Assembly: GCF_016863315.1 (NCBI RefSeq)
Contig: NZ_BOOQ01000051.1
Coordinates: 1-64,000 of the forward strand
DNA: 64,000 nucleotides
DNA from: Planotetraspora silvatica
Lineage (GTDB): Bacteria > Actinomycetota > Actinomycetes > Streptosporangiales > Streptosporangiaceae
Direction of reading: 5' to 3'
Both the position numbers and the translations under genes were made by a program. The notes under the pieces were generated by a model. The model was not told the origin of the DNA and ran no database searches. It saw only the letters and a program-made list of their open reading frames with translations. Each line of letters begins with the position of its first letter. The stretch's first letter is position 1. Below are positions 5,491-55,106 of the stretch, piece after piece.

Positions 5491-5609
5491 TTGCATGATC
5501 ACGATTGGTGTTTGTGCTGGTCATCACGGGCAGGCCCGAATCTGTGCATGATCACCAAGCAAGAAGTTCCAGGTCGGCGGCCCTTTTTACGAATGTGTGC
5601 ATGATCACG
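5491..5609 (-). repeat. One-sided 53-bp repeat array (three motif copies) in the argG leader
   Basis: Three copies of the motif GTGATCATGCA read on the minus strand, with motif starts at 5609, 5556 and 5503, exactly 53 bp apart. The first two are followed by RNATTCG and later by CGACCTGG or TGACCAGC, matching the unit of the palindromic arrays elsewhere in the window. The third copy is cut after GATCATGCA and runs straight into the argG ribosome binding site. The array starts 42 bp after the argR stop codon. Unlike the others it has no mirrored arm. Confidence 0.85.
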
Positions 5610-5650: not shown

Positions 5651-8304
<2,654 letters not shown>

Positions 8305-15081: not shown

Positions 15082-15152
15082 CTCAGCCGGCGATCTGCTC
15101 CTCGACTCAGCCGGCGATCTGCTCCTCGACTCGGCGGGCGGTTTGCTCCTCG
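15082..15152. repeat. 24-bp tandem repeat, three copies
   Basis: CTCAGCCGGCGATCTGCTCC plus CTCGA is repeated exactly at 15082-15105 and 15106-15129, followed by a third diverged copy ending at 15152. It fills the gap between the NTF2-like gene and the transporter gene. The 24-bp unit is divisible by three, but no reading frame across it looks like a gene. Confidence 0.85.
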
Positions 15153-27300: not shown

Positions 27301-27525
27301 CGGGCGATCCTCCGCTGGGAGACGGCCTACGGGTCGTCGTACCGAATCGACACGTCGACCGACGGCGTCACCTGGACCCCGGCGTACTCGACGAGCAGCG
27401 GGAACGGCGGGATCGACAACGTGTCCTTCACCCCGGTCAACGCCCGATACGTCCGAATGCAAGGCGTCAAACGAGGCACTACCTACGGCTACTCCCTCTA
27501 CGAACTAGAGCTCTACAGCAAGTAA
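24349..27525 (+). CDS. Secreted penicillin acylase family protein with F5/8 type C domain
   Basis: A 1058-residue secreted Ntn hydrolase. The signal peptide is about residues 1-31 (RRAITAAAAFALLALGLPAV, cut near ASAAP). The acylase alpha part includes VTIVRDKATGVPHITGTT and GYAGAQDRLWLMDLMR. The beta chain should begin at Ser383 (MSNAIVVSADKSATG), the predicted autocatalytic nucleophile. The C-terminal 130 residues (about 930-1058) form a discoidin / carbohydrate-binding module (NLAAGATASANG, IDGDPASRWASDW, YIQVDLG). Acylases of this family hydrolyse amides such as acyl-homoserine lactones, penicillins or lipopeptide acyl chains; the substrate is unknown. A 53-bp array starts 21 bp past the stop. 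Confidence 0.9.
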   Translation: MHARLRRAITAAAAFALLALGLPAVPASAAPAFPPDDYCLGQCADVLPPGQNGNATLIEILGNQGFGTFPTHSTDQLSKYAGLISGYTGLTDDQITNFFNDSGFGVPAGQVESTISPRSDVTIVRDKATGVPHITGTTRSGTMFGAGYAGAQDRLWLMDLMRHVGRGELTPFAGGAMGNRELEQSVWRNSPYTEADLQAQIDRLRNSGPRGAQLYSDVQSYIAGINSYIDYCMANRNCPGEYVVTGHMDAITNAGGPVDFQMTDLVAIAGVIGGLFGGGGGAEMQSALVRVAARAKYGTAVGDQVWQAFREQNDPETVLTLHDGQSFPSGNAPAGATGVVLPDATTTPVDITENEQGTATSSTTAATSALTGLTVDNSKPSMSNAIVVSADKSATGHPIAVFGPQTGYFAPQLLMLEELSGPGIRARGAAFSGLSLYVLLGRGTDYAWSATSSLQDITDTYSITLCDPNGGAPTTSSNYYLYQGTCTAMETLKKTNSWKPTTADSTAAGSYDLVIKRTKYGLVSWRGTVGGVPTAFTTLRSTYQHEADSAIGFQMFNDPAEMGSAAAFQNSASTIGFAFNWFYVNSADTAYFMSGSDPVRSAVSDPNLPMTADAAHEWAGYDPSTNTADYAAPSTHPQAVNQDYFVSWNNKQAKDYGSADGNFSFGPVHRADLLDAPVKAALASGTLDRSGTVKIMASAATTDLRGTKVLPNLLRVLKSSAVTDPALASAVSKLSSWASSGAKRVETSPGSKTYANADAIRIFDAWWPKLVRAQFKPGLGDGLYQSLVNALQINESPSGQQQGDLSSFPTSANEAQTHKGSSFQYGWWGYVDKDVRNVLGDQVASPLPAKFCGDTVAACRTVLLNSLSSALAEPAATTYPGDASCAAGNQWCADAIQQSPLGGVKHPLISWQNRPTYQQVVSFPAHRGDSIGNLAAGATASANGTQSPNTPAKAIDGDPASRWASDWTDNQYIQVDLGSAKSVGRAILRWETAYGSSYRIDTSTDGVTWTPAYSTSSGNGGIDNVSFTPVNARYVRMQGVKRGTTYGYSLYELELYSK

Positions 27526-27545: not shown

Positions 27546-27952
27546 CGTGATCATGCGCAGGTTCGGAAATCGCCCGCCCGACCAGCCCACCCATTGAGCG
27601 TGATCATGCACAGGTTCGGAAACAGCCGCCCTGAGCAGCCAGTTTCTCAACCGTGATCATGCACACTTTCGGAGAAACCCGCCGCGACCTGGCACTACAC
27701 GTGTGGTGATCATGCAATCGAACGGATTCGCATGATCACCACACGCATAAGGCCTGGACATCGCACCAATCGCCGAATCCGTGCATGATCACGAAACCCA
27801 TCGGGCCTGACCAGTACGCACACGAGCGAATCTGTGCATGATCACGCGCGGCATCGCCCCTGGCAGGCGCCCCTTCCCCCGAACCCGTGCATGATCACGC
27901 ACAAGGTCGGGGCCGGTCAGCATGCCTGCCACCGAACTTGTGCATGATCACG
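27546..27952. repeat. Palindromic 53-bp repeat array A
   Basis: Motif CGTGATCATGCAC (or a near copy) starts on the plus strand at 27546, 27599, 27652 and 27705, and on the minus strand at 27740, 27793, 27846, 27899 and 27952, always 53 bp apart. The two orientations meet in a central imperfect hairpin: GTGTGGTGATCATGC and GCATGATCACCACAC around about 17 nt. TTCG follows the motif at +17 in nearly all units. The array lies between convergent genes, 21 bp past the acylase stop and 59 bp from the pheT stop. Total length is 407 bp. Confidence 0.92.
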
Positions 27953-27996
27953 CCCCAAGGGTCGCAGCCCAAGGAGTCACACCCCAAGGGGTCACG
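27953..27996. repeat. 14-15 bp tandem repeats next to array A
   Basis: Three imperfect copies of CCCCAAGGGGTCACA-type sequence follow the last 53-bp unit directly: at about 27953, 27967 and 27982. They occupy the space up to the pheT 3' end and, read on the minus strand, lie just after the pheT stop. Confidence 0.7.
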
Positions 27997-28010
27997 CCCC
28001 ACAGAAGCGG

Positions 28011-30580
28011 TCAGGCTCCGCGGAGTTGGGCTCCGGTCCGCTCGGCGGCGAGGGCCACGGCGGCGTCACGAGCCGCCGTCGTCTCCTCGACCGTGAGCGT
28101 ACGGTCGCCGGCCCGGAACCGCAGGCTGTAGGCCAGCGACTTGTTGCCCTCGCCCACCTGCTCCCCCGTGTAGACGTCGAACAGCCTGATCGCCTCGAGC
28201 AGATCCCCGGCCCCCTCACGCAGCGCGGCCTCCACCTTCGCGACCGGCGTGTCCGCCGGCACGATCAGCGCGACGTCCTGCGTGGCCACCGGGTAGGCGG
28301 ACACGACGGGCGTCTGCACCGGGCCGGACAACGGGAGCGCGGACAACTCCAGCTCCATCGCCGCCGTACGCGGAGGCAGGCCATACGCCTCGGCGACGCG
28401 CGGGTGCAGCTCACCCGCGTGACCGACCGTCACCGGCTCGCCGGTGACGGGGTCTGCCACGGTCAGGAGCGCGCAACGCCCGGGATGCCACGGTTCGTGC
28501 TGGTCCGCCGAGATGCCGAGCTCGACTCCGGCCGCACGGGCCAGCGTGCGCGCGGCCTCAACGGCGTCCGCCCAGGACGCCTGGCGCCCCGCACCCCACC
28601 AGCCCGACCGCTCGAACTCCCCGGCGAGCACGACGGCGGCCCGGAGCGGCTGCCGCGGCAGCGCCTTCTCGATCTCCGCGAGCTCCTCGGGAGCCGGCCT
28701 GCGATCGACCGCGAGCACCGGCGCCGACGCCGGAGCGTCCGCTTCCGGCCGGTAGACCAGCCCGATCTCGAACAGCGCGACGTCGCCGAACCCGCGTCCC
28801 GCGTTCCGGACGAGCGTCTTCAGCAGGCCGGGCAGCAACGTGGTCCGCATGAACGGCTCGTCCTCGCTCAGCGGGTTGACCAGCCGGCTCACCCTCCTGC
28901 GCGCGTCACCCTCGGGCAACTGCAGGCCGTCGAGGTCACGCTCGCCGATGAACGGATACGACAACACCTCGACATATCCCGACGCGGCCAGTGCCCGCCC
29001 GGCCCGCCGGCGCAGCCGCTGCGCCTCCGTCAGCCCGGCCCCCGCGGGAGCGGCGGGCAGAACCGACGGCAGGTGCTCGTATCCCTCGAGCCTGATGACC
29101 TCTTCCGCCAGGTCGTTGGGGTCGGTCATGTCCGGACGCCACGTCGGCGGCGTCACCGTGATCAGGTCGTCTCCCTGTACGGCGAGCTTGTCGGCCAGGT
29201 CGCCGCTGGACACCACACCGGTGGCGGCGACGCCCTGCCCGCCGCGCACGCCCGCGACGGCGCCGTCGGCCACCGTGCAGCCGACCTGCTCGAGCCGCCG
29301 GATCACGGTCTCCCGTGTGTACGGCAGGCCGGCGACACGACCGGGGTGACCCGCCGGGATGGTGATCGTGAGGGGCGCCGCCTCGACCTGGGCGTGGGTG
29401 ACGCCCGGCTCAGCCGTGGCACCGCCCAGCTCGACGAGGAGCTGCACGGCACGCCACGACGCGATCAGTGGAAGCTCCCTGTCGACGCCGCGCTCGAACC
29501 GCTTGGACGCCTCACTGACCAGGTTGTGCCTGCGGGACTCCCGCGCGATCCCGGTGGCCGAGAAGTGCGCGGCCTCGATCACGATGTCGCTCGACGTGCC
29601 GGAGATCTCGGTGTGCAGGCCGCCCATCGTGCCCGCCATCGAGATCGGGCCCGAGTCGTCGGTGATCAGGATGTCGTCCTCGTGGAGCTTGCGGACGACG
29701 TGGTCGAGCGTCTCCAGCGTCTCGCCCGCCAGCGCCCGCCGCACCACGATGCCTCCGGACAGCCGGGAGCGGTCGAAGGCGTGGAGCGGCTGCCCGAGCT
29801 CGAGCATGATGTAGTTCGTCACGTCGACGGCCAGTGAGACCGGCCGCATCCCCGCGCGCATCAGCCGCAGCCGCATCCAGAGCGGGCTCTCGGCCGCCGG
29901 ATCGAACCCGGAGACCGAGCGCAGCACGAAGCGGTCGCAGGCCGTGGGGTCGGCGATCGACGCCGGCCACGACTCGCCCGGCACGGCGGGCGGCTCGACG
30001 ACGCCCGGGTCGTGGAACGGCACGCCGAACGCGGTGGCCGCCTCACGGGCGACGCCGCGGATCGACAGCGCGTATCCCCGGTCGGGGGTGATCTCCAGCT
30101 CGAGCACGTCGTCGCGCAGGCCCAGCAGTTCGACGACGTCCGCGCCGATGGGCGTGTCCGGCGGCAGCAGGAGGATGCCCGGGGACGACTCGGCGATGCC
30201 GAGTTCGGCCTCCGAGCAGATCATCCCGTCGGACAGCCTGCCGTACGTCTTGCGGGAAGCGATCTCGAAACCGCCCGGGAGGACGGCGCCCGGCAACGCG
30301 ACCGGGACCACGGCGCCCTCGGCGAAGTTGACGGCGCCGCAGACGATCTCACGCGGCGCGGCCTCCCCCACCTCCACCCGGCAGTGCCGGATCGGCTTCT
30401 TGAAGCCGTCCAGTTCCTCGATCGCGAGGACGCGTCCGACGACCACGTTCTTGATCTCGTGGCCGTGCGCGGTGATCGACTCGAGCTTCAGACCGGCGGC
30501 GGTGAGCTTGTCGGCCACCTCGTGGGCCGTGACGGCGGGGAGATCGACATACTCCCGCAGCCATGAAAGCGGGACCTTCA

Positions 30581-44757: not shown

Positions 44758-45164
44758 CGTGATCATGCACGGGTTCGGAGAATGCGGCCTCTAGCTGCCC
44801 AAACACGGATCGTGATCATGCACGGGTTCGTGAATATGGCCGCCGACCAGCCAACTCCTCGGCCGTGATCATGCACACATTCGCGGAGATGAGCCGCGAC
44901 CTGCCCGTTCACCGTTCGTGATCATGCGCAGGTTCGGAGAAATGGCCTCTCAACTGCGGCCATGCCGTACGTGATCTGGCAACCAGAGCGTCATTGCCAG
45001 ATCACGAACGGCATCATCCCAGGCAGACCGGCGTACTCCCGAACCTGTGCATGATCACGCCAGGCATCGCCGGAGGTCGGCGCGCACATCCACGAATCCG
45101 TGCATGATCACGCTCGGCGTTTCCGCAGGCCGACGCGAGATCCCCGAACCTGTGCATGATCACG
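44758..45164. repeat. Palindromic 53-bp repeat array B
   Basis: Motif starts on the plus strand at 44758, 44811, 44864, 44917 and 44970, and on the minus strand at 45164, 45112, 45059 and 45006; spacing is 53 bp (one 52). The centre is a perfect hairpin: GTGATCTGGCAA (44971-44982) with TTGCCAGATCAC (44994-45005). Here GATCATGC has been replaced by GATCTGGC on both sides, keeping the palindrome. Right end lies 16 bp past the aspS stop. Total length equals array A (407 bp). Confidence 0.92.
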
Positions 45165-45179: not shown

Positions 45180-46922
45180 TCAGGCGGTCGGCTTGGGGTC
45201 CTTCTGCTTGGCGTCCACGCCGGCCTCCTTGCGCTGCGCGCCCGTGATGGGCGTGGGAGCTCCCGTCAGCGGGTCGTAGCCGGACGCGGTCTTCGGGAAG
45301 GCGATCACGTCCCGGATCGACTCGCCGCCCGCCAGCAGCATGCAGATCCGGTCCCAGCCGTAGGCGATGCCTCCGTGCGGAGGCGGGCCGTACTTGAACG
45401 CCTCCAGCAGGAAGCCGAACTTGTTCTCCGCCTCCTCCTTGGAGATGCCCAGCACGTCGAAGACCCGCTGCTGCATCTCGGCCCGGTGGATACGGATCGA
45501 GCCGCCGCCGATCTCCATGCCGTTGCAGACCATGTCGTACGCGTAGGCGAGCGCCTCGCCGGGGTGGTCCTGGAAGTTGTCGGCCCATTCGGGCTTCGGC
45601 CCGGTGAAGGGGTGGTGGACCGCGGTCCAGCCGCCCTCACCGTCCTCTTCGAACATGGGGGCGTCGACGATCCACAGGAACGACCACTGGGACTCGTCGA
45701 TCAGGCGGCACCGGCGGCCGATCTCCAGTCGCGCCGCGCCGAGCAGGTCGCGCGAGGCGGAGGCGGCGCCGGCGGCGAAGAAGACCGCGTCGCCCGGCTT
45801 CGCGCCGGTCGCCGCGGCGAGGCCGGCGATCTCCGTCTCCGAGAGGTTCTTGGCGACGGGGCCGCCCAGACCGTCCTCCTGGACCAGCACGTACGCCAGG
45901 CCGCGGGCGCCGCGCGCCTTGGCCCAGTCCTGCCAGCCGTCGAGCTCCTTGCGGGTCTGCGACGCGCCGCCCGGCATGACGACCGCCCCGACGTACGGCG
46001 CCTGGAACACCCGGAACGGGGTGCCGGAGAAGTACTCCGTGAGGTCGACGAGCTCGACGCCGAAACGGAGGTCCGGTTTGTCCGAGCCGTACCGGGCCAT
46101 GGCGTCGGCGTACGTCATCCGCAGGAGCGGGGACGGCAGCTCGTAGCCGATGGTGTCCTTCCAGATCCGCCCGATCAGAGCCTCGCCGAGCTCGATGATG
46201 TCGTCCTGGTCCACGAAGGACATCTCGATGTCGATCTGGGTGAACTCGGGCTGCCGGTCGGCGCGCAGGTCCTCGTCGCGGAAACAACGGGCGAGCTGGT
46301 AGTAGCGCTCCAGGCCGGAGACCATGAGTAGCTGCTTGAACAGCTGCGGCGACTGCGGCAGGGCGTACCAGTTGCCCGGCTGTAGCCGTACGGGCACGAG
46401 GAAGTCGCGAGCGCCCTCAGGCGTGGAGCGGGTGAGGTCCGGAGTCTCCACGTAGACGAAGCCGCGCTCGTTCATGACGTCGTTGGCCAGGTAGGTCGCC
46501 TTGGACCGGATCCGCAGCGCCTGGGCGACCTGCTGCCGCCTGATGTCGAGGTAGCGGTACTTCAGCCGCGCCTCCTCGGAGACGCCGGTGTTGCCCTCGA
46601 TGGGGAACGGCAGAGGCGCTGACTCGCTGAGCACCTCGACCTCGGAGGCGACGACCTCGATCCCGCCTGTCGGAAGGTCGGGGTTCTCGTTCCCCTCCGG
46701 CCGCACGCGGACCTCGCCCGTGACCTTGACGCAGTACTCGGAGCGCAGGTCGTGGGCGTGATCCTCCTCGCGGAAGACCACCTGGGCGGAGCCCGACGCG
46801 TCACGCACGTCGATGAACACCACCCCGCCGTGGTCGCGCCGGCGCGCCACCCAGCCCGCCAGCGTCACCTGCTGGCCTGCATGCTCCTTACGAAGCGTTC
46901 CTGCTTCGTGAGTGCGGATCAC
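45180..46922 (-). CDS. aspS: Aspartate--tRNA ligase
   Basis: A 580-residue class IIb synthetase. The N-terminal OB anticodon-binding domain ([20 protein letters not shown]) is followed by the catalytic core with [20 protein letters not shown], the motif-2 segment [20 protein letters not shown], a GAD insertion, and motif 3 near [13 protein letters not shown]. Without structure the Asn-discrimination cannot be judged, so it may be discriminating or not. GTG at 46922 overlaps the hisS stop as GTGA. Array B starts 16 bp after its stop. Confidence 0.96.
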
Positions 46923-48175
46923 GAGAGTTTCCCCTTCAAAACGTCGACGACCCCGGCCAACGGCACCGCGGTCTGCTCACCTGTTGTCAGGTCTTTCACT
47001 TGTACGGCTCCCGCCTCGATGTCCCGCTCACCCAGGATCAGGGCGAAACGAGCACCACTGCGGTCGGCGGCCTTCATGGCGCCCTTGACGCCCCGGCCGC
47101 CGAAGGCCATGTCCACCGCTATGCCGTCCCGGCGCAGCTCGGCGACGAGCGAGAAGATCCGGCGCCTGGCCTCCTCGCCCAGCGGGACGGCGAACACCTC
47201 GACCTGCCCGGGACGCTCGGTGAGCAGCCCTTCCGCCTCCATCGCGAGGACCGTGCGATCGACGCCGAGGGCCCAGCCGACGCTGGGCAGCGCGGGGCCG
47301 CCGATCATCTCACTCAGGCCGTCGTAGCGCCCGCCGCCGCCGACCGCGGACTGCGCGCCCAGACCGTCGTGGATGAACTCGAAGGTCGTCCGCGTGTAGT
47401 AGTCGAGCCCGCGGACCAGTCGCGGATCGTCCGAGTAGGTGAGGCCGGCTCCCGTGAGCAGGCTGCGGACCTCCTCGTGGTAGGCCTTGCAGGCCCCGCA
47501 GAGGTGGTCGGTCACGAGCGGCGCGTCCACCAGCTGCGCCTGGACCTCGGGGCGCTTGTCGTCGAGGATCCGCAACGGGTTGATCTCGATGCGCTGCCGC
47601 GTGGCCTCGTCGAGGTCGAGCCCGCGCAGGAAGTCCTGGAGCGCGGCCCGGTAGGCGGGACGGCACTCCTTGCAGCCGAGCGAGTTGATCAGCAGCCGCA
47701 CGTTCTTCAGGCCGAGCGAGGCGTAGCCGTCGGAGGCCAGCACGATCAGCTCCGCGTCGAGCGCCGGGTCCTCCGCGCCGAGCGCCTCGGCGCCCACCTG
47801 CGAGAAGTGCCGGTACCTGCCGGCCTGCGCCTTCTCATAGCGGAAGTAGCTGCCGGAGTACCAGAGCTTGATCGGGAGGGCTCCGCCGTACAGGCCGTGC
47901 TCGAGGACGGCGCGCACGACGCTGGCCGTTCCCTCGGGGCGCAGCGTCAGGGACTGGCCGCCCTTGCTCTGGAAGGTGTACATCTCCTTGGTCACGATGT
48001 CGGTCGACTCGCCGACCCCCCGCGCGAACAGGCCGGTGTCCTCGAAGGCCGGGGTCTCGATGTACCCGTAGCCCGCGCGGCGGGCGGGTGCGGACAGCGC
48101 GTCGCGCACGATGAGTGCCCACTCCGAGCGCGGCGGCATCCAGTCGAAGGTGCCCTTGGGCGCCTGAAAGCTCAT
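46919..48175 (-). CDS. hisS: Histidine--tRNA ligase
   Basis: A 418-residue class II synthetase. Motif 1 and the N-terminus read [15 protein letters not shown] and [20 protein letters not shown]; motif 2 is [20 protein letters not shown]; the histidine-specific [15 protein letters not shown] is present, as is motif 3 near [11 protein letters not shown]. The C-terminal anticodon domain ends the protein. ATG at 48175 overlaps the stop of the preceding gene by one base (TAATG). Confidence 0.96.
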
Positions 48176-48876
48176 TACAGTCCCCTGCTAGGGCCGCTGT
48201 GCGGCACCACTTCCCTGAGAAAGGGGTTGGTGGCCCGCTCGCGGCCGATCGTCGTCTGTGGTCCGTGACCGGGCAGGACCAGCGTCTCGTCCGGCAGCGT
48301 CAGCGTTCTCGCGAGGCTGCCCAGGATCGTCGCGTAGTCGCCGCCCGGGAGATCGGTGCGGCCGATGGAGCCGGCGAACAGCAGGTCGCCCGAGAACAGG
48401 ACCTCCGCGTCCTGCGCGGGATCCGTGTCCCCCAAGGGCGTCCTGAACGTCACCGACCCCCTGGTATGGCCGGGGGCATGGTCGACCGTGATGTCCAGAC
48501 CGGCGAGCCGCAGGGTGGCCCCGTCGGACAGCTCCTTGACGTCGTCGGGCTCGCTCAACTCCAGCCCGCCGAACAGCTGACCCGCCTGAGCCGAGAATCC
48601 CTTGCCCGGGTCCGACAGCAGCTCGCGGTCCTCCGGATGGATCCACGCGGGAATGTCACGCGCGCCGCAGACCGGCGCCACCGACCACACATGGTCGAGG
48701 TGACCGTGGGTCAGGAGCACGGCCACGGGCTTCAGCCGGTGCTCCCGCAGCAACTCGTCGAGGTCGTCCACCGCGTCCTGACCAGGATCCACGACGACGC
48801 ACTCCTCGCCTGGGGCGGGAGCGACGACATAGCAGTTGGCCTGGAAGGACCCTGCGGGAAACCCGGCGACGAGCAC
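48175..48876 (-). CDS. MBL-fold metallo-hydrolase (glyoxalase II-like)
   Basis: A 233-residue metallo-beta-lactamase fold hydrolase with the zinc-binding THGHLDH motif, a further ligand His in [10 protein letters not shown], Asp in [15 protein letters not shown] and GHGPQTTIG at the end. The family includes hydroxyacylglutathione hydrolases and other thioesterases; the substrate is not clear, and actinobacteria lack glutathione, so a mycothiol-linked substrate is possible. GTG at 48876. It is translationally coupled with hisS, a common actinobacterial pair. Confidence 0.88.
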
Positions 48877-50013: not shown

Positions 50014-50073
50014 CGTAATACAACCAAGGGCATTTCGGGCCCTGGAGGGCTGATTCAAGTGCGGGAGGACGCG

Positions 50074-51303
50074 GTGACCACCGACCCGTGGGGCCGGGTA
50101 GACGCTGACGGCACCGTCTACGTGCGTACGGCTGAGGGAGAACGGGCCGTCGGGTCCTGGCAGGCCGGCGAGCCTGAAGAGGCCCTGGCCTACTACCGCC
50201 GCAAGTTCGACGAGCTGGCCGGGCAGGTCCAGCTCCTGGAACAGCGGGTGAAGGGCACCGATCTGGCGCCCGCTCAGGCCGAGTCGAACATCGCGAAGCT
50301 GCGGGAGGCGGTCGCGGAGGCGCACGCCATCGGCGACCTCGCGTCCCTCCAGGACCGCCTCGCGGCGCTCACCGATCTCGTCGGCAAGCGCCGGGAGGAG
50401 GTCAAGGCCGCCCGCGACCAGGCTCGCGTCCAGGCCCGGGAGACCAAGGAGCGGATCGTCGCCGAGGCCGAGCGCATCGCCGAGGACGCCACTCACTGGA
50501 AGTCGGGCGGCGAGCGCCTGCGGCAGCTCATCGACGAGTGGAAGGCCGCCGAGCGCATCGACCGGGCGACCGAGGCCACCCTGTGGAAGCGCCTGTCCGC
50601 CGCTCGTACGGCTTTCGCGAAGCGGCGCAAGGCCTACTTCTCGTCCCTCGACGAGCAGCGCGACGCCATAAGGAGCTCCAAGGAGCGGATCGTCACGGAG
50701 GCCGAGGCGCTGTCGTCCTCGACCGACTGGAACGCCACGGCGGCGGCCTACCGCGAGCTGATGCGGCAGTGGAAGAACGCCGGGCGCGCCTCCCGCGAGG
50801 CCGAAGACGAGCTGTGGGGCCGGTTCAAGGGCGCCCAGGACCAGTTCTTCCAGGCGAGGTCCGCGGTCTTCGCCGAGCGCGACGCCTCGTTCGCGGCCAA
50901 CGCGGAGGCCAAGGAGGCCCTGCTCGTCGAGGCGGAGCGGCTCCTGCCCGTCACCGACGCCCGTACGGCCCGCAGCGCCTTCCGGAATCTTCTAGAGCGC
51001 TGGGAGGCCGCCGGACCGGTGCCCAGGGAGGTGCGGGACAAGCTCGAGGGCGGCCTGCGCCGCGTCGAGGACGCCGTCCGCAAGGCCGAGGAGAACGAGT
51101 GGAAGCGCTCGAACCCCGAGGCCCGCGCTCGCGCCCAGGACACGGTCAACCAGCTCCGCCGCTCGATCGAGCAGCTCGAGACGCGCCTGGCCAAGGCGCG
51201 GGCCGGCGGAAGGGACAAGGACGTCAAGGAGGCCGAGGAAGGTCTGGTCGCCCGTCGTTCCTGGCTCGAAGAAGCCGAGCGGACCCTGGCCGAGTTCTCC
51301 TGA
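50074..51303 (+). CDS. DUF349 coiled-coil protein
   Basis: A 409-residue cytoplasmic protein that is almost entirely helical and highly charged, with repeated modules (about residues 150-215, 230-290 and 305-370) such as WKAAERIDRATEATLWKRL and WKNAGRASREAEDELWGRFK, diagnostic of DUF349. Function unknown; in proteobacteria and actinobacteria such proteins are linked to nucleoid or translation. The GTG at 50074 has GGGAGG five nt upstream and is preferred over GTG 50059. Array C starts 7 bp after its stop. Confidence 0.85.
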   Translation: MTTDPWGRVDADGTVYVRTAEGERAVGSWQAGEPEEALAYYRRKFDELAGQVQLLEQRVKGTDLAPAQAESNIAKLREAVAEAHAIGDLASLQDRLAALTDLVGKRREEVKAARDQARVQARETKERIVAEAERIAEDATHWKSGGERLRQLIDEWKAAERIDRATEATLWKRLSAARTAFAKRRKAYFSSLDEQRDAIRSSKERIVTEAEALSSSTDWNATAAAYRELMRQWKNAGRASREAEDELWGRFKGAQDQFFQARSAVFAERDASFAANAEAKEALLVEAERLLPVTDARTARSAFRNLLERWEAAGPVPREVRDKLEGGLRRVEDAVRKAEENEWKRSNPEARARAQDTVNQLRRSIEQLETRLAKARAGGRDKDVKEAEEGLVARRSWLEEAERTLAEFS

Positions 51304-51309
51304 GCCGCG

Positions 51310-51917
51310 CGTGATCATGCACAAGTTCGAGGAATGTGCCGTTGACCTGCCTCGACCTTGGGCGTGATCATGCACGGGTTCGTGGAGGGGGCTGTTGACG
51401 TGCCCAGACTCGGGTCGTGATCATGCACACTTTCGGCGACACCGACGGTGACCAGCGATTACGCCTTTCGTGATCATGCACGCGTTCGGGGAATGTGTCT
51501 CTGAGCAGGTCCGGCGCGGTTCGTGATCATGCACGTCGCGAAACCAGCGCGGGAGCGCTCCTACGGGAGACCACCGACCGGCGATTCCAGCACCTCGAAG
51601 CACATAGCGCGGAGGATGCCCGCCAGGCACCGCGGTAGACCATGACCGCTCCAGCTCGCGGGCCATACACAACCGCGTCTGCCGGCGTCCGTATCATCCT
51701 TCGGCAACCTCCCGCCCAGGACGCCGCACGGCCGATCACTGCGTTGTGCATGATCACGAACGACGTCGAGCCTGCTCGGAGGCGCATTCCCCGAACGTGT
51801 GCATGATCACGAGAGACGTAACCGCTGGTCACCATCGGTTTCACCGAAGGTGTGCATGATCACGAGCCGAGTCTGGGCACGTCAGCAGCCCTCTCCACGA
51901 ACCCATGCATGATCACG
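51310..51917. repeat. Palindromic 53-bp repeat array C with long central spacer
   Basis: Motif starts on the plus strand at 51310, 51363, 51416, 51469 and 51522 and on the minus strand at 51917, 51864, 51811 and 51758, all 53 bp apart. The arms 51363-51521 and 51759-51917 are near-perfect inverted repeats: 139 of 159 positions identical by my count, including the sequence between motifs, so it folds as one giant hairpin. About 209 bp without units (51536-51744) sit in the centre. It lies between convergent genes, 7 bp from the DUF349 stop and 25 bp from the relA stop. Confidence 0.92.
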
Positions 51918-51941: not shown

Positions 51942-54305
51942 TCAGTTGGTGACGCGGTAGACGTCGTAGACGCCTTGGATGGTCCGGACGGCCTTGAGGA
52001 CGTGGCCGAGATGCTTGGGGTCGCCCATCTCGAAGGTGAACTTGCTGACGGCCACCCGATCCCGTGAGGTCGCCACCGACGCCGACAGGATGTTCACGTG
52101 GTGGTCCGACAACGTCCGCGTCACGTCGGACAACAGACGAGGCCTGTCGAGGGCCTCCACCTGGATCGCGACCAGGAAGAGCGAATCGTCCTGCGGCGAC
52201 CACGACACCTGGACCAGGCGGTCCGCCTGCGCACTCAACTGCTCCACGTTCGGACAACTCGTCCTATGTACGGAAACTCCGTGACCTCGCGTGACAAATC
52301 CGACGATGTCGTCGCCAGGTACCGGCATGCAACATCGGGACAGCCGCACCCACACGTCCGGGTCGCCCGCCACCATGACGCCGGCGTTCGAATTGGCCCT
52401 GGAGCGCCCCTTGAGCCTCGTAGGGACCGCGGCCTCCGCCAGGTCCTCCTCGGCCCCCTCGACCCCTCCCAGCGCCTGTACGAGCTTCTGAACGACGGAC
52501 TGGGCCGCGACGTGGCCCTCCCCCACCGCCGCGTACAGCGCGGACACGTCCGGATAGCGCAGGTCGCGAGCCAGTGCCAGAAGAGCTTCACCGGACATGA
52601 GGCGCTGGAGCGGGAGGCCCTGCTTTCGCATCGCCCGCCCGATGGCCTCCTTGCCGGCCTCGATCGCGGTCTCCCTGCGCTCCTTGGAGAACCACTGACG
52701 GATCTTGTTCCGGGCTCGGCCGCTCTTGACGAACTTCAGCCAGTCACGCGACGGCCCGGCGTCCGGCGACTTCGAGGTGAAGATCTCAACCGTGTCCCCG
52801 TTGCCGAGCCGGGACTCCAGCGGAACCAGCCGCCCGTTCACGCGGGCGCCGATGCAGCGGTGTCCCACCTCCGTGTGCACGGCGTACGCGAAGTCCACGG
52901 GCGTGGCGCCCTCAGGAAGGGCGATCACCTGCCCACGCGGCGTGAAGACGAACACCTCGGACACCGACAGGTCGAACCGCAGCGACTCCAGGAACTCGCC
53001 CGGGTCGGAGGTCTCCTTCTGCCAGTCGAGCAACTGCCGCAACCAGGCCATGTCGTTGACCTGCTTGGCCTTGGCGGGCCCCGAGCCGTTCGTCTCCTCC
53101 TTGTACTTCCAGTGCGCGGCCACGCCGTACTCCGCGCGGTTGTGCATCGCCCGCGTGCGGATCTGCAGTTCGATCGTCTTGCCCTCGGGCCCCATGACCG
53201 TCGTGTGCAACGACTGGTACATGTTGAACTTGGGCATGGCGATGTAGTCCTTGAACCGCCCGGGCACCGGCCTCCACTGTGCGTGGATCGTCCCGAGCGC
53301 CGCGTAACAGTCGCGGACCGTGTCGACGAGCACCCTGATGCCCACCAGGTCGTAGATGTCGTCGAAGGCCACGTCCTTGGCGATCATCTTCTGGTAGATC
53401 GAGTAGTAATGCTTCGGCCGCCCGCGCACGGTCGCCTTGATCTTGGCCTCACGCAGCTCGGCGGAGACCTTCTCGATGACCTCCTGCAGGAACAGGTCAC
53501 GTCTGGGTGCGCGCTCCGACACCATCCGGGCGATCTCGTCGTACCGCTTCGGATAGAGCATGGCGAACGCGAGGTCCTCCAGCTCCCACTTGATGGTGTT
53601 CATGCCGAGCCGATGGGCCAGGGGCGCGAAGATCTCGAGCGTCTCCCGGGACTTCTGCTGCCGCTTGTGCTCGGGCATGTAGCGCATCGTGCGCATGTTG
53701 TGGAGCCGGTCGGCGAGCTTGATGACCAGGACCCGGATGTCGCGGGACATCGCGACGACCATCTTCCTGACGGTCTCGGCCTGCGCGGCGTCGCCGAACT
53801 TGACCTTGTCCAGCTTGGTCACGCCGTCGACGAGCAGGGCGATGTTGTCGCCGAAGTCACCCCGTAACTCGTCGAGGCTGTAGGCGGTGTCCTCGACGGT
53901 GTCGTGCAGCAGGGCGGCGCACAGGGTCTCATCGTCGGTCCCCAGCTCGGCCAGGATGCTCGCCACGGCCAGCGGGTGGGTGATGTACGGGTCGCCGCTC
54001 TTCCGCTTCTGGTCGCGGTGATGGTAGGCGGCCATGTCGTAGGCGCGCTCGATCAGGCGCATGTCGGACTTGGGATGGGTCGCCCGGACCGTCTTGAACA
54101 GCGGCTCCAGCACCGGATTCATAGCACCCCATTGCCCCCCGAACCGGGTCAGCCGTCGTCGCGCGGCCGGCGCCGGTCTCTCTTCCGCGCCCCCCGATGC
54201 GTCGGGCACCGCGTCAGCGGGCACATCGGCCGGCTCGGGGGCCTCGCGCGGGTCGGTCCCGCGTCCAGCCCGCGTGCTGTCAGGCACGACCACATCACGG
54301 GGCAC
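51942..54305 (-). CDS. relA: Bifunctional (p)ppGpp synthetase/hydrolase Rel
   Basis: A 787-residue RSH protein that makes and breaks (p)ppGpp in the stringent response. The HD hydrolase part contains [20 protein letters not shown] and LLHDTVEDT; the synthetase part contains [12 protein letters not shown] and [19 protein letters not shown], with the RxKD motif typical of bifunctional enzymes. TGS ([20 protein letters not shown]) and C-terminal ACT ([20 protein letters not shown]) domains follow. GTG 54305 after GGAG is chosen; the N-terminal 55 residues are low-complexity. It lies downstream of apt with a 104-bp gap. Confidence 0.96.
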
Positions 54306-54916: not shown

Positions 54917-55106
54917 GACGCCCACCCTAGAGCACATCCGGCGGACCCTCCGCGTACGGCAGGCCGGCCGCCGCGACGCCACGGGCCCGCTGTCCCGTAC
55001 GACGTCGCGGGCCCGCCGGCCCCTCGAACACCGGCCCCTCGAATACCGGCCCCTTGGACGCCCGCCCCCTCGACACGGACCGCTGCGGACACCACCCGAA
55101 ACAGCG

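Follow-up and report, generated by a model that had tools for sequence, protein, structure and literature searches.

The genome of Planotetraspora silvatica contains a large dispersed family of arrays in which a short motif recurs with a 53-bp period in inward-facing arms. Within one of these arrays lies the gene of a probable DNA-cutting protein, possibly able to recognize the repeats, suggesting a so far undescribed partnership of enzyme and repeat. A literature search among open-licence PMC papers retrieved no description of these arrays or of a link between them and the gene.

Repeat arrays in the 64-kb window

Within the window, i.e., the whole 64-kb stretch of P. silvatica DNA that was analyzed, GTGATCATGCA is found at 30 sites when up to one mismatch is allowed, compared with a mean of 0.60 and a largest value of 3 in 100 shuffles, and its recurrence is thus beyond chance as a preliminary description of this DNA had claimed. 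Array A is built as reported there, with 4 rightward and 5 leftward motifs at 27546-27952. Its rightward arm (27546-27716, plus strand) has motifs at 27547, 27600, 27653, and 27706, the first of them 22 nt past the stop codon of a gene ending at 27525, while the leftward arm (27729-27952, minus strand) lies 60 nt from the stop codon of a minus-strand gene at 28011. The two innermost motifs pair with each other in a central hairpin (27698-27747; -33.7 kcal/mol, z -8.8).

Arrays B and C had been described as following the same plan, and each does have 5 rightward and 4 leftward motifs if the altered innermost pair GTGATCTGGCA/TGCCAGATCAC of array B is counted, but a short central hairpin is missing from array C. 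The rightward arm of array B (44758-44981, plus strand; innermost motif in the altered form GTGATCTGGCA) points with its outer end toward a minus-strand gene whose 5' end is 118 bp away, its central hairpin (44963-45013) retains pairing between the two altered motifs, and its leftward arm (44995-45164, minus strand) ends 17 nt from the stop codon of a minus-strand gene at 45180. Array C begins 8 nt past the stop codon of a DUF349-like gene (50059-51303) with its rightward arm (51310-51533, plus strand), continues through a center (51534-51746) that leaves the arms 234 bp apart, and closes with a leftward arm (51747-51917, minus strand) 26 nt from the stop codon of a RelA-like gene (51942-54122). 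A half version had been recognized at 5491-5609, and this minus-strand array indeed consists of 3 leftward motifs only, with period 53 and 43 nt away from the stop codon of the minus-strand gene 5651-6205; this and all other gene contexts were obtained with a simple in-house gene caller in place of annotation. The period described as exact holds within each arm of the window apart from one spacing of 52 in array B, and the proximity to stop codons ascribed to all arrays holds at distances of 8-60 nt for every arm other than the left arm of array B with its neighboring gene 5' end.

The unit of P. silvatica arrays reads 5'-cGTGATCATGCACaggTTCG...tGACCTGc...-3', and its better-kept positions are approximately 0-18, 32-39, 44-45, and 52 of 53. 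By eye, conserved positions peak about 10.6 bp apart, and helical phasing was dropped as an explanation after a permutation test (p = 0.22). Pairing of the two arms unit by unit into one long hairpin can be drawn by eye for some arrays (array C and one near 244 kb of contig C2) and is not a general rule because array A does not pair in this way and one-strand arrays have no partner arm. No Rfam family reached its gathering score against the window. Next to array A, at 27948-28001, there are 3.7 tandem copies of a TCACACCCCAAGGG-like 15-bp unit, different short GTGACAAACAACC-like repeats precede the counterpart of array A in P. kaengkrachanensis, and 2 further short tandem repeats of the window (15082-15152, 24 bp x3; 55016-55073, 15 bp x3.8) stand outside the array family.

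A genome-wide family at the 3' ends of genes

The search of the whole genome that had been proposed as a check retrieved 998 copies of GTGATCATGC from 8.66 Mb (498 + 500 by strand), and 698 pairs of GATCATGC lie 52-54 bp apart, so that the notion of a dispersed element is supported by approximately 1000 copies. The reversed pattern is a weak control for GTGATCATGC because it contains CTAG, which is rare in such genomes, and genomes of other genera serve as the better one. Period 53 is also kept in a larger sample of 564 kb (400 kb of contig C2, the window with the 20 kb that follow it, and four stretches of 20 kb each that were picked for their arrays, 80 kb together), where 134 of 148 same-strand spacings equal 53 and 7 equal 52. 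This sample contains 27 arrays, either inward-facing full arrays or half arrays apart from one irregular case. Among 16 full arrays of P. silvatica, 12 have centers short enough to fold, with a mean z of -5.3 against shuffles that preserve base composition only (11 of them at -2.7 or lower and one at 0.4), and the remaining 4 centers exceed 90 bp.

Position and orientation were followed in P. silvatica and in at least 76 named Planotetraspora loci, which are a selected sample picked by array pattern. One-strand arrays are mostly co-oriented with the gene at their outer end, by 8:2 in the P. silvatica sample, 27:3 in the named loci among the matches listed, and 8:0 in syntenic stretches. Where an arm has a sense stop codon nearby (-60 to 200 nt), it begins no more than 40 nt past that stop in 26/30 cases in P. 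silvatica and 76/91 in the named loci (among the matches listed), and the TGA of the motif itself is the stop codon of the gene in 5/30 and 20/91 of these arms, respectively. Across Planotetraspora, the median distance from a stop codon to the arm behind it is 15-30 nt. Together with the co-orientation, this placement supports the earlier suggestion of a 3'-end structure.

Full arrays lie between convergent genes in 7 cases, between genes of the same direction in 8, and between divergent genes in one in P. silvatica, with corresponding numbers of 16, 19, and 2 for the named loci among the matches listed; named arrays at the edges of their loci (15 full, 8 one-strand) and the irregular P. silvatica array were excluded from the tallies. 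Taken together, 3 of 53 full arrays with called context (P. silvatica and named loci, matches listed) occupy gaps between divergent genes compared with 81 of 310 gaps longer than 150 bp, and 27 of the 53 occupy gaps between same-direction genes where one arm faces a 5' end. A role of the arrays as bidirectional terminators, as had been surmised, is plausible given their predicted central hairpins and the plain hairpins that array-less relatives have at one shared site (see below). The idea that arrays substitute for Rho was rejected since Rho is present in 27/27 genomes irrespective of arrays. Separately, P. silvatica has a second Rho-like gene that scores below the family cut-off and is separated from an array hairpin by about 550 bp (G000:C81:199-233 and 786-1835), and a Rho-like gene that is likewise below this cut-off lies between arms in P. 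mira (L125 5965-7152).

Conservation, dialects, and decay across Planotetraspora

All 5 Planotetraspora genomes carry 402-1158 copies of GTGATCATGC compared with 6-76 in 55 other relatives, apart from one (G028) with 173, and the family thus extends to related genomes. The array sites of the window are also occupied in the 4 other species (G001; P. phitsanulokensis, G002; P. kaengkrachanensis, G003; P. mira, G004) with differing unit numbers, except that the half array is absent from G001, where the neighborhood is different. Motifs are retained in 36 of 36 orthologous comparisons, some of whose targets were chosen because they bear arrays, and none of these comparisons revealed movement of an array within the genus.

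Motifs change less than spacers. Between P. silvatica and P. mira, substitutions affect 5/346 motif positions, 6/108 of TTCG, 11/141 of GACC, and 115/743 of the rest, and the comparison with G001 gives 27/192 for the motif and 211/425 for the rest. The motif dialects are concerted, with GTGATCATGCAGAAGTTCG-like units at many sites in G001. The altered center GTGATCTGGCA/TGCCAGATCAC of array B is identical in P. kaengkrachanensis and P. mira, has one broken pair in P. phitsanulokensis, and is replaced by the standard motif in G001. The arrays of P. phitsanulokensis have decayed: It has 402 copies of GTGATCATGC versus 946-1158 in the other Planotetraspora genomes, 62 GTGATC triplets versus 381-460 in the other 4 species, and 15/168 motif substitutions relative to P. 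silvatica arrays versus 7/204 in P. kaengkrachanensis (p = 0.028).

At the site of array C, which is gene-free in P. silvatica, P. kaengkrachanensis has 2 genes between the arms (joined stretch 46165-48544) that read as regulator-like and dehydrogenase-like, and a small excisionase-like gene occupies another site that is gene-free in P. silvatica in P. mira (site E, L113 2333-4135).

Arrays in the wider family and class

Beyond Planotetraspora, arrays were found in 3 more genera, partly at the same loci and with lineage-specific motif dialects. Among 341 genomes of the family Streptosporangiaceae, 13 genomes from 4 genera have 4-460 GTGATC triplets with 52-54-bp spacing, with none for the reversed control, and the 1-2 triplets of 14 other family genomes look unrelated where listed. 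The unit heads are GTGATCATGCACAGGTTCG in Planotetraspora, GTGATCATGCACAGGTTCCCG in G105, GTGATCTTGTAGTTTGTCGCA in genus g69, and GTGATCTTGCGAATTCTCGCA in genus g80. The site between relA and DUF349, which is that of array C, was inspected as 30 loci out of 50 genomes, of which 29 could be parsed; these 2 names as well as P450, gmd, Rieske, valS, and clpX were given by reading proteins and not by profile search. Arrays occupy this site in G105, G111, G120, G121, G242, and G243, also in G115, and by coordinates in G117, with a one-unit form in G130 and hairpin remnants in G113 and G116. The remaining loci have no array, and several of them have a plain hairpin by eye.

Pairs of GTGATCWTGYA with 27-57-bp spacing occur in 7 of 394 genomes of the class (P. 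silvatica, G111, G371, G373, G432, G491, and G579), with none for the reversed control. The GTGATCATGCA core is spread more widely than the 53-bp period, as across the class it takes other suffixes and periods of 22 and around 29-59, and looser arrays of this core are present in other actinomycete families. In 400 kb each, 56 of 57 exact motifs in G373 and 41 of 43 in G432 are intergenic. The 3'-end placement is weaker in both genomes because one-strand clusters are co-oriented with the gene by 12:6 and 8:6, respectively, and 7 of 24 G432 clusters are flanked by divergent genes. From the class-wide periods and this weak orientation it follows that the 53-bp period and strict orientation are features of Streptosporangiaceae, with the core reaching further and often occurring as single sites in other families. 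Spacings of 2-5 helical turns were considered for the other families and rejected, as G373 and G432 gave 32-59 (few longer) with no clear phasing.

Some related sequences were noted on the side. G028 has dispersed pairs of GTGATCATGC...GCATGATCAC about 39 bp apart (e.g., C5:158201-158249) that form no arrays, one of which adjoins its homolog of the nuclease gene described below. Unrelated tandem repeats that start with GTGATC occur at G007:C437:74954-75121 (period 54) and G448:C2:256786-257088 (period 27).

A candidate nuclease gene between repeat arms

The genes between two facing arms in G371, G491, and G579 encode one protein family. Its P. silvatica member is found outside the window (match G000:C26:7774-8721; P0003, 322 aa), again between two inward-facing arms, here of the 53-bp array type. 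Pfam models PF18741 (MTES_1575, 43 bits) and PF09407 (AbiEi_1, 25 bits) both match P0003 past their cut-offs. PF18741 is also past its cut-off in the proteins of G001 and G111 and below it in 4 others scanned alongside; the G371 protein is above the cut-off for AbiEi_1 and below that for MTES_1575, and the G491 and G579 proteins are below the latter as well. Residues E195, D228, and E239-Y-D-G are invariant in 4 sequences and are predicted PD-(D/E)XK residues. On these domain matches, the candidate is most likely composed of an AbiEi-like region and a Vsr/MTES_1575-type PD-(D/E)XK nuclease domain. MTES_1575 is described as having a Vsr-type REase fold (PMC3710099), and AbiEi is reported to bind inverted repeats cooperatively (PMC7319586). 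The embedded protein did not match the Y1 transposase model of Pfam, a PDB sequence search found nothing up to an E-value of 1, NCBIfam gave nothing near its cut-offs, and no relative was confirmed in viral contigs. An AlphaFold2 model of the L107 protein from P. kaengkrachanensis alone, with its N-terminus missing, reached a pLDDT of 37.8. By eye, no AbiEii-like gene was recognized within 1.5 kb of the candidate gene.

A whole-genome profile search of 30 chosen genomes revealed homologs at E<1e-80 in 13 of them, 4 of which had supplied the query (G371, G491, G579, and L107 of G003); tblastn against sequence stretches had found L107 only, and the others came from the whole-genome search. These strong homologs are flanked by inward-facing motif copies in 13/13 genomes, with at least 2 GTGATC-type motifs per side in 12 of them and single CTGATCATGCA copies per side in G419. 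Under a stricter rule (in both 350-bp flanks, at least 2 copies of GTGATCATGCA with no more than one mismatch), 11/13 pass, with G111 and G419 failing, compared with 1/932 genes of at least 500 nt as background (0/278, 0/57, 1/298, and 0/299); this placement test was devised once the pattern had already been seen. About 5 of the placements are independent, given the 4 query genomes among the 13 and the single locus common to the Streptosporangiaceae copies. This P450-gmd locus holds the gene in G000, G001, G003, G004, G111, G115, and G120 as well as a remnant in G243, and the G028 homolog has gmd on one side. The DUF349-relA locus, which has gene-free arrays in Streptosporangiaceae, holds the gene in G371, G432, and G419, while the G491 gene lies beside another P450 (approximately 41% identical) and those of G579 and G373 near clpX. 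From these differing neighbors, we conclude that the gene has occupied different array sites in different families. At the G371 locus (L335), the arms that flank the nuclease gene (1408-1474, 2569-2657) carry different motifs, GCGATCATGCA in one and GTGATCATGCA in the opposite one.

The link from gene to motif is good and that from array to gene is incomplete. A strong homolog is present in 7 of 13 array-bearing Streptosporangiaceae (G000, G001, G003, G004, G111, G115, and G120), G243 has a remnant without nuclease domain between arms, G105 (248 triplets) and G242 have a more distant paralog only, and G002, G117, and G121 gave no or spurious matches; since no more than 72 candidates were scored per genome out of as many as 149, absence of the homolog could be a miss. 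Loss of the gene preceding decay of the arrays would explain array-bearing genomes that lack it. Of the 9 family members that lack such arrays, 3 gave no match (G110, G112, and G113) and 4 spurious ones (G116, G119, G123, and G009), G007 has a partial match (3.7e-60), and G028 has one at 2.1e-80 with the motif on one side only. Outside Streptosporangiaceae, 5/5 array-bearing genomes have a homolog, and 3 chosen f30 genomes that were negative in the class scan have matches in G388 (1.3e-33), G405 (partial, 1.4e-54), and G419 (5.7e-87, with a CTGATC dialect).

Weaker paralogs also have repeats of their own on both sides at 5 of 7 loci (G105, G242, G388, G491b, and G579b), where the longest inverted match of the flanks is 12-33 nt, or 30 nt direct in G105, compared with 10-13 nt in shuffles. 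No flanking match above shuffles was found at the paralog loci G371b and G388b or, by the same test, at the gene loci of G373 and G120, and six spurious-match loci have no flanking repeats. The flanking motif of the G105 paralog was not found in 100 kb of its genome.

A probable two-part system and its rivals

For the observed anatomy of the arrays, their genome-wide family, their orientation to stop codons in Planotetraspora, their shared positions across genera, their dialects, and the gene between motif copies in several lineages, we favor as the probable explanation a system in which arrays are the cis part and the AbiEi-nuclease gene is the trans part, working similarly to REP repeats and RAYTs with an unrelated enzyme and with arrays that double as 3'-end structures. 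The protein quite likely binds the motif, presumably by means of its AbiEi-like part, and its binding along the 53-bp arrays may be cooperative; by analogy, the cooperative binding of inverted repeats by AbiEi fits this mechanism. The protein platform that had been suggested is supported indirectly. There is an even chance that the protein nicks or cuts at the motif or central hairpin, after which repair would keep the motif copies alike and slowly, on rare occasions, shift the gene from array to array. Judging from position and predicted hairpins, the arrays would serve as 3'-end structures, and it is about as likely as not that they persist there because at these places they do no harm or are of use, be it as hairpin terminators or as roadblocks formed by protein. 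The lack of a strong homolog in P. phitsanulokensis, whose arrays are decaying, counts for the two-part system. Against it count the 5 array-bearing genomes, notably G105, in which no intact homolog was found, a sixth with a remnant only, and the lack of array movement in the comparisons. More tentatively, and somewhat doubtful in this breadth, AbiEi-PD-(D/E)XK "array nucleases" with paralog-specific motifs might seed and homogenize arrays at gene ends in scattered actinomycetes, with the host using bound arrays as 3'-end boundaries and array centers also being favored places for new genes.

We regard it as unlikely that the arrays are devices of host termination or insulation that are kept by host selection and not by copying, with a bound protein (AbiEi-nuclease or another) as polar roadblock and intrinsic termination added by the hairpin. 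Such devices would well explain why Planotetraspora arms follow stop codons in the orientation of the gene, why full arrays are scarce between divergent genes (3/53 versus 81/310 gaps, matches listed), and why the relA/DUF349 site is common to arrays across genera and has a plain hairpin by eye in several array-less relatives. However, they do not predict a gene inside an array, about half of the full arrays among the matches listed (27/53) lie between same-direction genes with one arm facing a 5' end, the spread over 7/394 class genomes is patchy, and orientation is weaker in G373 and G432.

The palindromic, extragenic, and clustered copies and the 2 other inserts between arms (G003 site C and P. 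mira site E) would also agree with REP/BIME-like repeats that are spread by an ordinary transposase, with the AbiEi-nuclease gene as a passenger inserting between palindromes, but this is quite improbable given that one gene family is found between motif copies across several families that differ in dialect and that 5/7 weaker paralogs have their own repeats. Biased transformation could in principle maintain a short dispersed motif that has lineage dialects and often forms inverted pairs where genes end, as a signal of the DNA-uptake type; the nearly exclusive intergenic location of exact motifs in G373 and G432, the 53-bp arrays, and the embedded nuclease gene make this very improbable. Hardly any more credible are neutral minisatellites formed by simple tandem duplication, which would account for unit numbers that differ between species but not for motifs that stay conserved while spacers diverge and keep a near-constant length, for arms that face inward and are oriented to genes, or for loci common to several genera.

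Comparison with known systems

If the two-part system is real, about 1000 motif copies and an AbiEi-nuclease family of unassigned role would account for each other, this orphan nuclease family would gain a likely target sequence, and natural dialects and losses (G001 and G002) would lend themselves to testing how a DNA-binding protein and hundreds of sites change together. Several known systems resemble it in part. TTF-I with its Sal boxes and Tus/Ter are polar roadblock terminators with oriented repeated sites at ends, and the sites described here are likewise oriented at ends; the proteins are different, and a roadblock role here is predicted. The uptake sequences of Neisseria and Haemophilus are short motifs with dialects and inverted pairs at gene ends, and the arrays differ from them by having almost no coding copies (2 genomes counted), an array structure, and an embedded nuclease gene. 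Homing endonuclease genes reside within copies of their presumed target as the nuclease gene does here, but the same genome contains hundreds of gene-free arrays and no movement was seen within the genus. Antitoxins of the AbiEi kind (type IV toxin-antitoxin systems) resemble the candidate in its AbiEi-like region and are reported to bind inverted repeats; they differ from it in the fused nuclease domain, the hundreds of repeats, and, by eye, no AbiEii-like gene being nearby.

The closest likeness is to REP/BIME/REPIN repeats and their RAYTs, which share dispersed extragenic palindromes in many copies, an associated cognate nuclease gene, and lineage-specific families. Dispersed extragenic palindromes are found here, with half arrays that lack the second arm, and so is a nuclease gene associated with repeats. 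RAYTs (TnpA-REP) belong to the tyrosine (HUH/Y1) enzymes of IS200/IS605 type, whereas the candidate combines AbiEi and PD-(D/E)XK, and REP repeats bear GTAG or CGTC tags, neither of which is seen by eye in the Planotetraspora unit consensus. The head motif of genus g69 does contain GTAG. The arrays are also ordered and inward-facing with a 53-bp period, unlike REP repeats. We do not class them as REP/RAYT because both enzyme class and tag fail; if our reading is correct, they would represent a partnership of repeat and enzyme that is independent of REP/RAYT.
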